Positions 44,298-48,030 of a stretch of DNA of 64,000 nt are shown one piece after another. Below the pieces are notes generated by a model that saw only the letters and a program-made list of their open reading frames with translations, had not been told where the DNA came from and did not search any database. Source of the stretch: Archaeoglobaceae archaeon (GTDB lineage Archaea; Halobacteriota; Archaeoglobi; Archaeoglobales; Archaeoglobaceae); assembly GCA_038734275.1 (NCBI GenBank), contig JAVYOO010000002.1, forward strand, positions 220,911 through 284,910, read 5' to 3'. The stretch's first letter is position 1, and each line of letters begins with the position of its first letter. The translations under genes and the position numbers were made by a program.

Positions 44298-45410
44298 GTG
44301 GAAATCTGTATCGTTCATTACGGAGAAATAGGGATTAAGGGTTCCAATAGAGCATTTTTTGAGAAGAGACTCGTCCAAAATATCTGCAGATTTGCAAAAG
44401 CAAAGAGAAGATTTGGATGGATTGAGGTTGAATACTACAGTGGCATTGAGGAGAAGTTGAAGAAAATTCCGGGGATAAGATACTTTGGTGTAGGCTATAA
44501 AACTGAGCTCGATATGTCTGCAATCGAATCTGCTGTTTTAAAAACGCTTCCGGATAATTTCAATTCTTTTAAAATTTCGGCTTCGAGAAGAAACAAAAAA
44601 TTTCCACTTACTTCCGTCGAAATAAACAGGGAACTTGGGAAAGTAGTGGTTGAAAAAACAGGTAAAAAGGTAGATCTTGAAAAACCCGATGTCACGGTAT
44701 GGGTTGAGATCTGTGAAAATTATGCACTTGTATACTCCAAAAGATATGACGGTATCGGGGGACTTCCGGTTGGGAGTGCTGGAAAAGTTGTCTCTCTCGT
44801 TTCCGGAGGAATTGATAGCCCTGTAGCGAGCTTTCTTGCTATGAAACGGGGTTGTGAAGTTGTTGTTGTCCACTTTTTCAATAGAACCATACATTCCCCC
44901 GATGTGAGAAAAAAGATTTTAATGCTGGCCAAAAAGCTTGCAGAGTATCAAGGTGATTTGAAACTTTATATGATTCCATTTGAAGGCGTTCAGATGGAGA
45001 TAATCCGAATCGTTCCTCCCAAGCTCCGAATGGTGGTTTACAGAAGGAGTATGATGAGGATGGCAAATATGATTGCTGAAAAAGAGAGAGCCAAGGCCAT
45101 AGTAACGGGAGATAACATTTCTCAAGTAGCAAGCCAGACACTCGATAATCTGAACGTTATTTACTCAGCATCACGACTTGCAGTTCTTTCACCACTCTTG
45201 GGCTTCGACAAGGAAGAGATAATTTCGCTCGCAAAGAGAATTGGAACATACGAGATCTCAATCCTGCCCTATGAGGATTGCTGTTCGCTAATGGTTGCGA
45301 AGCATCCTGAAACAAGAGCAAAAAAGGAGATTGTGGAAGAATTCGAGGAATTCGAAGAACTAGAAAAAAATGCGGTGGAAAATGGAGAAATAATCGAGAT
45401 TCACTCGTAA
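44298..45410 (+). CDS. thiI: tRNA 4-thiouridine synthase ThiI
   Basis: Puts sulfur on U8 of tRNA. The 370-residue protein has the N-terminal ferredoxin-like and THUMP domains (about 1-165; [19 protein letters not shown] at the start) and the PP-loop ATPase [19 protein letters not shown] (about 178-196). The rhodanese domain of the bacterial form is missing, as is usual in archaea. [12 protein letters not shown] near residue 330 holds conserved cysteines. The start is GTG. The end overlaps the convergent acyl-CoA dehydrogenase gene by 10 bases. Confidence 0.94.
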
Positions 45411-46645
45411 ACCTTTTCCCACTCTTTATACCAGTCCATCGCATCTTTTTCGTAATCTCTATCCTTCGATGGTAGCCCAAGAAGTTCGTAGGCTTCGTGC
45501 TGAATCAGCACTTTCATGATCTCGTTGCTCCCAGTCCAAATAAGTCCCAAACGAAGATCTCTGAGCATTCTTTCAATTGGATAAACCTGCGTATAACCTA
45601 TTCCACCAAGAATCTGCATAGCTTTATTCACGACGTCCCACGCAACCTCTGTAGCGAAGAGCTTGGCCTCGCTTACGAGTCTGCGGGGATCAAGCTTCGA
45701 TTTACCCGCATCAAACGCATCAACAGCTCTTGCTGCGTTGTAAACAAGCGCTCTTGCTGCATCCAGTTTTGCTAAAGCTTCTGCAACCATAAAGTTTACG
45801 CCCTGAAATTCCCTTATCTTTCTGCCAAACGCCTTTCTCTTCTCCGAATATTTCATTGCAATTTCCAAGGCTGCTCTAACTCCAAGCGATCCCGCAGCAG
45901 AAGTGAGCCTTTCAGGAATCATCATTCTATTGAATATCTGCCTCGCGTTGTTAACCTCACCAAGGACATATTCTTTTGGAATTTCAATGTCTTTGAAAAC
46001 TATTCTTGCTGTTCCCATACCACGAAAGCCCATCAGGTTGTAAAGTTCCTCGATTTCAACCCCTCGATCCCTTTCCACAATAAAGGCGGTTAAAGCCCTA
46101 TGACTTGGTGCATTCGGATCAGTTCTTGCGTAGATCAAATAAAAGTCCGCCACTTTGCCACCTGCTATGAACCTCTTCGAACCATTCAAAACCCACACAT
46201 TACCCCTCTTTTCAGCCTTCGTAGTCGTGCCAAAGAAGTCGCTTCCGCCTCTTGGTTCCGTTAGACCTTCAGCGGAGATCTTTTTACCTCTTATTATCGG
46301 TTTTAAAAACTCTTCTTTCTGCCATTCATTGCCAAATCTATAAAGTGCCTCCCCAACAATGCTTACCATCGAATACGCACAGCCTATGCCCATTCCGAGG
46401 ACTCCTATTTCTTCAAGGGCAACGCTTTCAGCAGTCCATGTCATTCCCTTGCCTCCATACTCCTCAGGGAATCTCAAACCCAAAAGTCCTTTTTCTGCAC
46501 AGGCTTTAATAAACTCGTAGGGATAATCAACCTCATTTCTATCCATTTTACGAATTAGTTCTGGATCAATGGTCGCTACGAACTCCTTTACCTTCTCTCG
46601 AAGCTTCACTTCTTCTTCACTCAGCAAGAAATCATTTTCGAGCAT
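45401..46645 (-). CDS. Acyl-CoA dehydrogenase (isovaleryl/long-chain-type base position)
   Basis: A 414-residue flavoprotein of the acyl-CoA dehydrogenase family. It has [46 protein letters not shown] and [17 protein letters not shown]. The MCAD-type catalytic glutamate is replaced by Thr371 (IWTGSNE), but a glutamate occurs at Glu245 in [10 protein letters not shown], the place used as base in isovaleryl- and long-chain acyl-CoA dehydrogenases. That suggests a branched or long acyl-CoA as substrate. It is divergent from a MerR regulator with a palindromic operator in between. Confidence 0.93.
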
Positions 46646-46684
46646 ACACTCACCGCTTTAACTTCTGTATAACTCTACTTAAAT

Positions 46685-46700
46685 TTTACGTTTACGTTAA
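46685..46700. promoter_or_regulatory. Palindromic operator between acyl-CoA dehydrogenase and MerR genes
   Basis: TTTACGT (46685-46691) and ACGTTAA (46694-46700) form a near-perfect inverted repeat with a 2-base centre, only one mismatch. It is 40 bases before the dehydrogenase start and 53 before the MerR start, in the shared promoter region. The form is like the sites described for LiuR-type MerR regulators of branched-chain and fatty acid breakdown in bacteria (from memory). The MerR protein beside it is the natural candidate to bind. Confidence 0.55.
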
Positions 46701-46752
46701 TGTCATTTATAAGATGGAAATATTTTTATGTTTTGCCGACTTTTTAGCTTTA

Positions 46753-47187
46753 ATGCCAAGAAAAACTCGACAAAAAGAGAAGGAAACTTACACAATTTCC
46801 GAACTTGCTAAAGAATTCGAGATTAGCACAAGAACAATAAGATACTACGAGGAACTTGGTCTTCTTTCGCCACAAAGAACATCGGGAAATCAGAGAATTT
46901 TTACTAAAAAGGACAGAGCAAGACTTAAGCTGATTCTGCGTGGAAAAAAGCTTGGATTCAGCCTCAACGAAATAAAAGAAATGATAGAAATGTATGATGT
47001 TGCTGGAGAGACTGAGCAGATAAAGCTAACACTAAAATATGGAGAGAGAAAGCTTAAAGAAATTGAAGAGAAAATTCGGGATCTTGAAATGCTCAGGGAA
47101 GATTTGCTTGCAATTAGGGAGATTTTGCTGAAAAGATTGCAAGAATTGGAAAATGGGCAAAAAAGTTATAAAGTCGAAAAACAGTAA
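46753..47187 (+). CDS. MerR-family transcriptional regulator
   Basis: A 144-residue regulator with the MerR N-terminal HTH and wing: TYTISELAKEFEISTRTIRY, YEELGLLSPQRTSGNQRIFT, then LRGKKLGFSLNEIKEMI, and a long C-terminal coiled coil (about residues 88-135) for dimer formation. It lacks the cysteines of metal-sensing members. The pattern is like LiuR/CueR-type members that control acyl-CoA metabolism. The ATG at 46753 was chosen since MPRKTRQKEKETYT is a usual N-terminus; an in-frame ATG at 46714 adds 13 hydrophobic residues. It is divergent from an acyl-CoA dehydrogenase gene. Confidence 0.9.
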   Translation: MPRKTRQKEKETYTISELAKEFEISTRTIRYYEELGLLSPQRTSGNQRIFTKKDRARLKLILRGKKLGFSLNEIKEMIEMYDVAGETEQIKLTLKYGERKLKEIEEKIRDLEMLREDLLAIREILLKRLQELENGQKSYKVEKQ

Positions 47188-47193
47188 AATAAG

Positions 47194-48030
47194 GTGGAAA
47201 ATATATCTTTATTGCTAAAAACGCTAATAGTTGGTATTGCTTACGTTTTGACAGTGATTACCACTGCAATATTCGGTAAAATCCTTGGAGCTGTTCCTCC
47301 AGTAAATGAATTCAATTTTCTGGAGATTTTAGTTCTCTTGTTCGTTGGAGGAACTCTTATCGCTTCAGTGATGATCCCGATACAATCAATTCCAGTAAAA
47401 AGCAGAGAAAGATTTCTGGTGAACTTTCTCGTGATTTACATGCTCTCATATCTAATTGGCGCACCAGAAATAGCGATATATACAAATTACGAGATTAATT
47501 ACCAGCTCTTTCTACTCTTAGAGCAATTTTTTGTTGGCTTTACAATTGCATTCCTAATCACGATCCTTTTCAAACCCAAGGAAGTCAATTCAAAAATTTC
47601 GGTAGAAATAAAGCGATACTTTTTGTCAAGAGGTCGAAAGGATTGGATTTTCAGGTTCTCATTGACATCCCTACTTTTCCCACCGATTTACTTCTTTTTT
47701 GGATACATTTTTACCCCAATCACCGCAAGCTATTACATAAATTCCCCACTTGGATTGAAAATTCCAGAAATTGGAGTAATAATCCCCATTGAGATCTTAC
47801 GTGGATTTATCTATAACTTAACTTTTATTCCTTTACTGGCTTTGTTAAAGATGCAGATTTTGAGGCTTGGCTTCTACTTTAGCCTACTGCTTGCTGTAAT
47901 CGGTGCGATTGTGCCACTAATGGTAGCAGTAACTTGGCCTTTGGAACTGCGTTTTGGACATGCAATCGAAATGACCCTCGATAGTTTCGCTCAAGGATTT
48001 ATGATTTCTCTGCTTCTTCACAAAAATTGA
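47194..48030 (+). CDS. Polytopic membrane protein of unknown function
   Basis: A 278-residue integral membrane protein with seven or eight hydrophobic segments and a basic loop near the middle (KRYFLSRGRKDWIFR). No family is recognised. It begins with GTG six bases after the MerR gene, preceded by an AAGGTGG-like site made by the same bases, so the two are co-transcribed. The MerR control suggests a link to acyl-chain metabolism or import, but no transport motif is seen. Confidence 0.75.
   Translation: MENISLLLKTLIVGIAYVLTVITTAIFGKILGAVPPVNEFNFLEILVLLFVGGTLIASVMIPIQSIPVKSRERFLVNFLVIYMLSYLIGAPEIAIYTNYEINYQLFLLLEQFFVGFTIAFLITILFKPKEVNSKISVEIKRYFLSRGRKDWIFRFSLTSLLFPPIYFFFGYIFTPITASYYINSPLGLKIPEIGVIIPIEILRGFIYNLTFIPLLALLKMQILRLGFYFSLLLAVIGAIVPLMVAVTWPLELRFGHAIEMTLDSFAQGFMISLLLHKN

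Follow-up and report, generated by a model that had tools for sequence, protein, structure and literature searches.

A putative LiuR-like MerR switch with a conserved operator at an archaeal acyl-CoA dehydrogenase promoter

Here we describe a candidate regulatory unit in a 64-kb stretch of DNA (hereafter the window) from an Archaeoglobaceae archaeon, the source genome of which comprises 1.73 Mb in 12 contigs. The unit is made up of a MerR-family regulator gene, an acyl-CoA dehydrogenase (ACAD) gene and a palindrome of 16 base pairs (bp) that lies between them. The two genes are divergent, ACAD on the minus strand and MerR on the plus strand, and are separated by 107 bp of intergenic DNA (46646-46752). 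The features of the locus, with the TATA-like elements read by eye, are:

45401-46645, minus strand: ACAD gene, 414 amino acids, the conserved target gene
46676-46683, minus strand: TATA-like element TTTAAGTA, one base from the palindrome, putative ACAD promoter
46685-46700, no strand: 16-bp palindrome TTTACGTTTACGTTAA, putative operator, conserved across archaeal and bacterial loci
46706-46713, plus strand: MerR-side TATA-like element TTTATAAG, five bases from the palindrome, role presumed
46717-46729, plus strand: further TATA-like element GAAATATTTTTAT, some 30 bp ahead of ATG 46753, role presumed
46753-47187, plus strand: MerR-family regulator gene, 144 amino acids, with Pfam matches above cut-off and an alignment with 13 archaeal orthologues

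A longer alternative frame for MerR opens at ATG 46714. The ATG at 46753 is present in all five aligned rows, and the position of ATG 46714 is not an ATG in the four relatives aligned. The palindrome is a 7-2-7 inverted repeat in which six of the seven arm pairs match. The ACAD start lies 39 bp away from it and the ATG of MerR 52 bp, which agrees with an earlier note, made from the sequence alone, that had placed a palindrome within these 107 bp. When the intergenic regions of the five loci of the genus that share the divergent layout are aligned, the palindrome (with one or two varying columns) and its flanks are kept and the remainder drifts; the ATTTAT portion of TTTATAAG and the GAAATA and TTTTA portions of GAAATATTTTTAT are invariant. 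The pattern TTWACGTNNACGTWAA occurs once in the window and in none of 300 dinucleotide shuffles of it. Of 5000 shuffled versions of the 107-bp intergenic DNA, three contained an equally good site. Across the whole genome TTTACGTTTACGTTAA is the sole exact match to TTWACGTNNACGTWAA. No structured RNA was found at 45300-47300 by Rfam at the gathering threshold.

The evidence for a functional unit comes from relatives. We compared 59 genomes of the archaeal class, with thresholds of E<=1e-10 for MerR matches and E<=1e-150 for ACAD orthologues (numbers preceded by G and L are our handles for genomes and loci). MerR matches were found in 21 genomes: 14 carry a close orthologue, the window included, six belong to genus g8 and one is G006. 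The 13 other close orthologues are 74-85% identical to the window protein, and the g8 proteins 60-65%. In all 14 genomes with a close orthologue the palindrome is located at the promoter of ACAD or of a ligase-ACAD operon, with TTWACGTNNACGTWAA exact in 12 and a single mismatch in G007 and G011. The genes are arranged around it in several ways. MerR and ACAD diverge from the site in G000, G046, G050, G052 and G053, are in tandem with the site in between in G051 and G003, and follow the order MerR, site, ligase, ACAD in G001, G002, G005 (where the ligase is split into two open reading frames, ORFs), G007 and G014; in G032 the site is ahead of a MerR-ACAD operon. In G011, whose MerR gene lies at another place (L014), the end of the site is still 52 bp ahead of ACAD. 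In G082, from another family of the phylum, an exact site lies directly ahead of a MerR-ACAD operon.

ACAD orthologues are found in 28 of the 59 genomes, 14 with a close MerR, five with the g8 type and nine without a MerR match. In none of these nine is there a site with three or fewer mismatches upstream of ACAD (1500 bp searched in eight, 172 bp in G013). Eight of the nine genomes are 96-99% complete and G047 is 84% complete; the absence of the site is independent of a possible assembly gap for MerR in G047. The association between site and MerR has a Fisher p of 1.2e-6 when kinship is ignored. On an ACAD tree of 23 genomes the presence of MerR switches seven times on the best tree, and at least four switches are forced by starred branches; the site tracks the presence of MerR in each of four independent pairs, which are too few for p<0.05 in a sign test. 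These comparisons show, at the level of sequence, a conserved unit of regulator, putative operator and target, in which the presence of the site is linked to that of MerR.

Similar units exist in bacteria. We took the best 80 of 514 MerR relatives among named species genomes, chosen by protein similarity alone, of which 4 are archaeal and 76 bacterial (48 Bacilli, 19 Gammaproteobacteria, 6 Clostridia and 3 others). Within 250 bp upstream of the MerR match, TTTACGTNNACGTAAA is exact in 11 of the 76 bacterial loci, within one mismatch in 51 and within two in 72, including 19 of the 19 gammaproteobacterial loci. Shuffled controls (n=200) gave means of 0, 0.005 and 0.255 loci at zero, one and two mismatches, with a maximum of 2 at two mismatches; in the other 592 kb of the bacterial loci the corresponding numbers of sites were 0, 1 and 10. 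The four loci without such a site are L050, L052, L111 and L123, and L052 and L111 carry sites with three mismatches. An ACAD and/or ligase homologue was detected nearby by tblastn in 72 of the 76 loci, with a ligase fragment only in L050; the four loci without such a neighbour include L079 and L086, both of which end within 750 bp.

Three types of gene neighbourhood are prominent among the bacterial loci, two of them described here and the gammaproteobacterial one further below. In Bacilli the same palindrome accompanies MerR-ligase-ACAD operons (e.g. Anoxybacillus L059 and Geobacillus L057), with ligase and ACAD downstream in most loci, and MerR is 44-61% identical to the window protein (48 loci); the differences are that the operator occupies a 19-bp -35/-10-like spacer in 27 of the 48 and that the ACAD shares only 22-29% identity with its archaeal counterpart. 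In Clostridia and Dethiobacteria, MerR-ACAD pairs in Peptococcaceae CEB3 (L072), Desulfosporosinus (L100), Dethiobacter (L077) and Clostridia (L086) have a palindrome with 0-2 mismatches upstream of MerR and an ACAD that shares 53-55% identity with the archaeal target (partial in L086), and the three full proteins share its active-site pattern. These pairs differ by their bacterial promoters, and no study of them turned up in the literature searched. Across the Clostridia, Dethiobacter and L076 loci (the last from a metagenome-assembled genome labelled Proteobacteria) the ACAD is 52-57% identical to the archaeal protein.

The MerR protein matches PF13411 (MerR_1), PF00376 (MerR) and PF09278 (MerR-DNA-bind) above cut-off, and by these Pfam matches carries the N-terminal winged helix-turn-helix of MerR type. 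A palindromic operator at the regulated promoter, a further mark of the family, is recognisable in the DNA. All 17 NCBIfam matches of the protein fall under cut-off. The DNA-recognition stretch TRTIRYYEE is nearly identical among archaea, Clostridia and Bacilli, and the gammaproteobacterial proteins among the best 80 of 514 relatives have 45-51% identity with the window protein. None of 15 archaeal MerR rows has a cysteine, so a classical metal sensor is unlikely; assignment to the metal-sensing members (MerR, CueR, ZntR and CadR) was rejected on this ground and because the scores are far under the NCBIfam cut-offs.

The target ACAD has Glu245 within PERLTSA and Thr371 within IWTGS. Six of seven aligned paralogues from the same genome show the YEG pattern, with Glu at the Thr371 place; Glu is absent from the Glu245 place in all seven. 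The ACADs of the gammaproteobacterial loci carry ER at the Glu245 place and GAGTSE at the Thr371 place. We take the Glu245 place to be the catalytic base position of isovaleryl-CoA and long-chain dehydrogenases. Against the isovaleryl-CoA dehydrogenase model NF008594 the window protein scores 85.8, the cut-off being 545, and no NCBIfam name above cut-off was found for it.

The setting of the palindrome differs between the two domains. At 39 of 72 bacterial loci, 38 of them from Bacilli, the 6-mer that abuts the palindrome starts with TTG. By a strict rule, -35-like and -10-like 6-mers are spaced 19 bp apart in 27 of the 72 loci, all Bacilli; spacings of 24 bp (14 loci) and 17 bp (13 loci) come next. 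The 19-bp spacer layout is the one that PMC5045206 gives for metal-resistance MerR proteins. No archaeal operator lies inside a -35/-10 spacer of 19-20 bp; the archaeal sites abut TATA-like elements instead. Among 15 archaeal loci compared, ten (L006-L013, L015 and L016) have TTTAA(A/G)TA or a close form within about one base after the palindrome, and in L018, L019, L129 and L133 a TATA-like stretch seems to precede it; in L017 the assignment of the TATA side is ambiguous. Placement in a -35/-10 spacer is a promoter feature of classical MerR members, not of the protein fold.

How did such a unit come to be in an archaeon? In 392 genomes of the phylum, at E<=1e-20 for MerR and E<=1e-100 for ACAD, a MerR match is present in 23, of which 21 belong to the Archaeoglobaceae, the family of the window, and the others are G082 and G360. 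ACAD matches are present in 32; two of these genomes, G073 and G188, have no MerR match and lie outside the site comparison. An unrooted MerR tree places 20 Archaeoglobaceae rows in one starred clan beside Firmicutes, with the gammaproteobacterial rows on the opposite side; it leaves many forks open and has flagged long branches, and L051, L088, G006 and L127 (G360) were left out. A FastTree of 68 ACAD rows, in which bacteria are represented solely by genes adjacent to MerR, gathers the 31 archaeal rows (30 genes, G082 appearing twice) in one clan.

Transfer between the domains is the economical reading of these sequences and is likely, and the distribution favours the direction from bacteria to archaea without proving it. 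The earlier note had spoken of a bacterial-style unit acquired by ancient transfer. As to the unit, the conserved set of regulator, operator and target stands, and the bacterial style does not extend to the promoter, where the archaeal site abuts TATA-like elements and no -35/-10 spacer is seen. As to the transfer, the patchy archaeal distribution and the tree fit it, and the tree gives no direction because it is unrooted. Our tentative proposal, to which we give slightly less than even confidence, is that archaea acquired the unit from bacteria with an unchanged operator sequence, and that the same protein-DNA pair, once fitted to a -35/-10 spacer, was adapted to a TATA element on either side and became a simple block to TBP and TFB. 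Alternatively, the unit could have descended vertically from the common ancestor of bacteria and archaea, or have passed from archaea to Firmicutes. An unrooted tree with the Archaeoglobaceae in a single clan beside Firmicutes is compatible with either history. Against both stand the rarity of MerR in the phylum and its concentration in one family, the 76 bacterial proteins among the best 80 of 514 relatives, and the Clostridia that carry a related MerR and a 53-57% identical ACAD side by side, so that we regard such an origin as rather unlikely.

Another bacterial system that the unit resembles is that of LiuR in the Gammaproteobacteria. The likeness lies in a short MerR protein, a palindrome of the same form and an adjoining ACAD with Glu at the Glu245 place. 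In Alteromonas alba (L104) the genes run MerR, ACAD, carboxyltransferase, enoyl-CoA hydratase, which is the liu order. The window palindrome is one mismatch from the LiuR-type consensus form TTTACGTnnACGTAAA, and the LiuR-like form that the earlier note had seen in it is found ahead of gammaproteobacterial LiuR-type and related Firmicutes MerR genes as well. LiuR is a MerR-family regulator of branched-chain amino acid breakdown in PMC3223726 and PMC5343134, and the latter gives it many targets. The window differs in that its genome has one operator, not a regulon of many genes, in that neither a carboxylase nor a hydratase adjoins the locus, and in its TATA-type promoter.

The count of one operator comes from a scan for places within two mismatches of TTTACGTNNACGTNAA, which returned 46 places besides the operator and its own shifted match. 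Outside the window 44 were read: 39 are in ORFs of at least 100 amino acids, two in shorter ORFs (75 and 97 amino acids) and three are intergenic. The two places within the window sit in ORFs of 95 and 274 amino acids. Neighbouring genes were identified, by eye and with no family search, at the three intergenic and two short-ORF places but not around the 39 coding ones; none resembled an acyl-CoA gene. Further sites before other acyl-CoA genes, for which the earlier note had proposed a genome scan, did not materialise in convincing form among the 46, an outcome that the note had named as one half of a refutation. We therefore rejected a multi-site regulon in this genome, as no second convincing promoter site was among these near-matches, and a LiuR-type regulon spanning many genes of branched-chain amino acid breakdown appears to be absent from it. 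Given the comparative conservation, the lack of further sites points to a system with one target and not to a false lead, and the archaeal system looks single-target. Because the scan returned no regulon and the grouping by sequence is open, we do not file the regulator as LiuR. Most likely the unit works like a LiuR-type switch, with an operator of bacterial type on an archaeal promoter.

We consider it probable that the MerR protein is a local LiuR-like repressor with one operator that blocks TBP and TFB and is released by acyl-CoA; binding, repression and ligand are all parts that we infer. A MerR dimer would bind the palindrome at 46685-46700 between two divergent archaeal promoters and, once bound, would most likely bar TBP and TFB from the ACAD promoter. 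Since a TATA-like element lies five bases away on the MerR side, the regulator may also control its own gene in the divergent layout. The compound most likely to free MerR from the DNA is a CoA thioester from the ligase/ACAD pathway, either an acyl-CoA or a relative of one.

A local archaeal switch of this kind would have a counterpart in another protein family. In PMC6449355, FadR of Sulfolobus acidocaldarius, a TetR protein, is a local repressor of fatty-acid breakdown that is freed by acyl-CoA, both of which the proposed MerR switch would share. FadR differs in its family and, in the same source, in having four sites, all of which except the autoregulatory one are at least 130 bp upstream of promoters. 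It is the only archaeal fatty-acid regulator that turned up in the literature searched. No study of the MerR regulator in archaea turned up in our literature search, for which subscription papers were outside scope.

The same regulator, operator and target could also serve activation, with MerR recruiting or stabilising TBP and TFB, or distorting the DNA, when acyl-CoA is present. Many metal-resistance MerR proteins activate, and a position just upstream of a TATA box is also used by activators. L006-L013, L015 and L016 have the site directly ahead of the TATA-like element, and 27 of 48 Bacilli loci have the 19-bp spacer that is the layout of MerR activators. A TATA-like stretch ahead of the site, as read by eye in L018, L019, L129 and L133, fits a block better, and contact with the TATA element from either side favours steric occlusion over activation. 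LiuR, moreover, is named a MerR-family repressor in PMC3223726. For these two reasons, the varying TATA side and the repressor LiuR, we favour repression and find activation distinctly unlikely.

Several observations weigh against a local repressor of this kind. Pfam reveals no effector domain in the 144-amino-acid protein, and all of the archaeal TATA-like elements were read by eye. The family may activate, because the 19-bp layout in Bacilli matches that of metal-resistance MerR proteins. In genus g8 the MerR genes (n=6) have neither a nearby palindrome nor an ACAD neighbour in the loci read, and five g8 ACAD genes have no site with two or fewer mismatches nearby. Within the window genome, the forward pattern has 30 places at two mismatches vs 77 for a reversed-pattern control, and eight other ACAD-like genes have no recognised site.

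A chance AT-rich match, or a piece of the core promoter, is a very improbable explanation of the palindrome: exact sites do occur in eight genomes without an intact close orthologue, but the site is present in 14 of 14 MerR-bearing and 0 of 9 MerR-less relatives that have the ACAD, in 72 of 76 bacterial loci and in none of the 300 window shuffles. Those eight genomes hold nine such places, of which eight were read and a second place in G042 was left out; five are inside ORFs, two (L034 and L037) come right after a small ORF and one (L045) is in an apparent repeat array.

MerR proteins are the classic case of regulators that act by re-spacing bacterial -35 and -10 elements, and archaea have no such elements. 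The pairing of a MerR protein and the same operator at archaeal promoters makes the survival of a switch across two transcription machineries directly testable. Archaeoglobaceae beta-oxidation also gains a concrete candidate regulator; PMC4600277 describes these genomes as rich in beta-oxidation genes.

Some further observations were made at individual loci. In the window, an ORF of 278 amino acids with a membrane-like character (47194-48030, plus strand) begins six bases past the MerR stop; at E<=0.001 neither Pfam nor NCBIfam gives a match for it, and the ORFs 3' of MerR in relatives appear by eye to be unlike it. In genus g8 (L020-L025) MerR adjoins a conserved gene of 423-424 amino acids. 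In one g8 genome, G025 (L140, 1501-1516), TTTACGTTAACGTAAT, a site with one mismatch, lies 18 bp ahead of a thiolase-domain gene; the five other g8 genomes searched, including the close relative G026, have no match to it at one mismatch, and the site may therefore be due to chance. At L026 (G006:C32) the MerR match is reduced to 69 residues with a stop, and there is no palindrome within two mismatches; regulator and operator of G006 may have decayed together.

Among bacteria, L123, from a metagenome-assembled genome of Betaproteobacteria, has a palindrome about 420 bp past the start of the MerR match, at about the end of the gene. In genus g2 (L011, L012, L013, L015, L016 and L026) the DNA from MerR to a divergent small ORF, which resembles a helix-turn-helix regulator, is strikingly conserved around ctatataaatttttttgcattta, and the palindrome does not explain this conservation. 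The small ORF ahead of the exact site in L034 is AbrB-like by eye, and the sites of L034 and L037 fall outside the listed ORFs. Finally, the exact palindrome of L045 (G055:C1) is located inside an apparent CRISPR-type repeat array with the repeating reading FQSYYSLIL.

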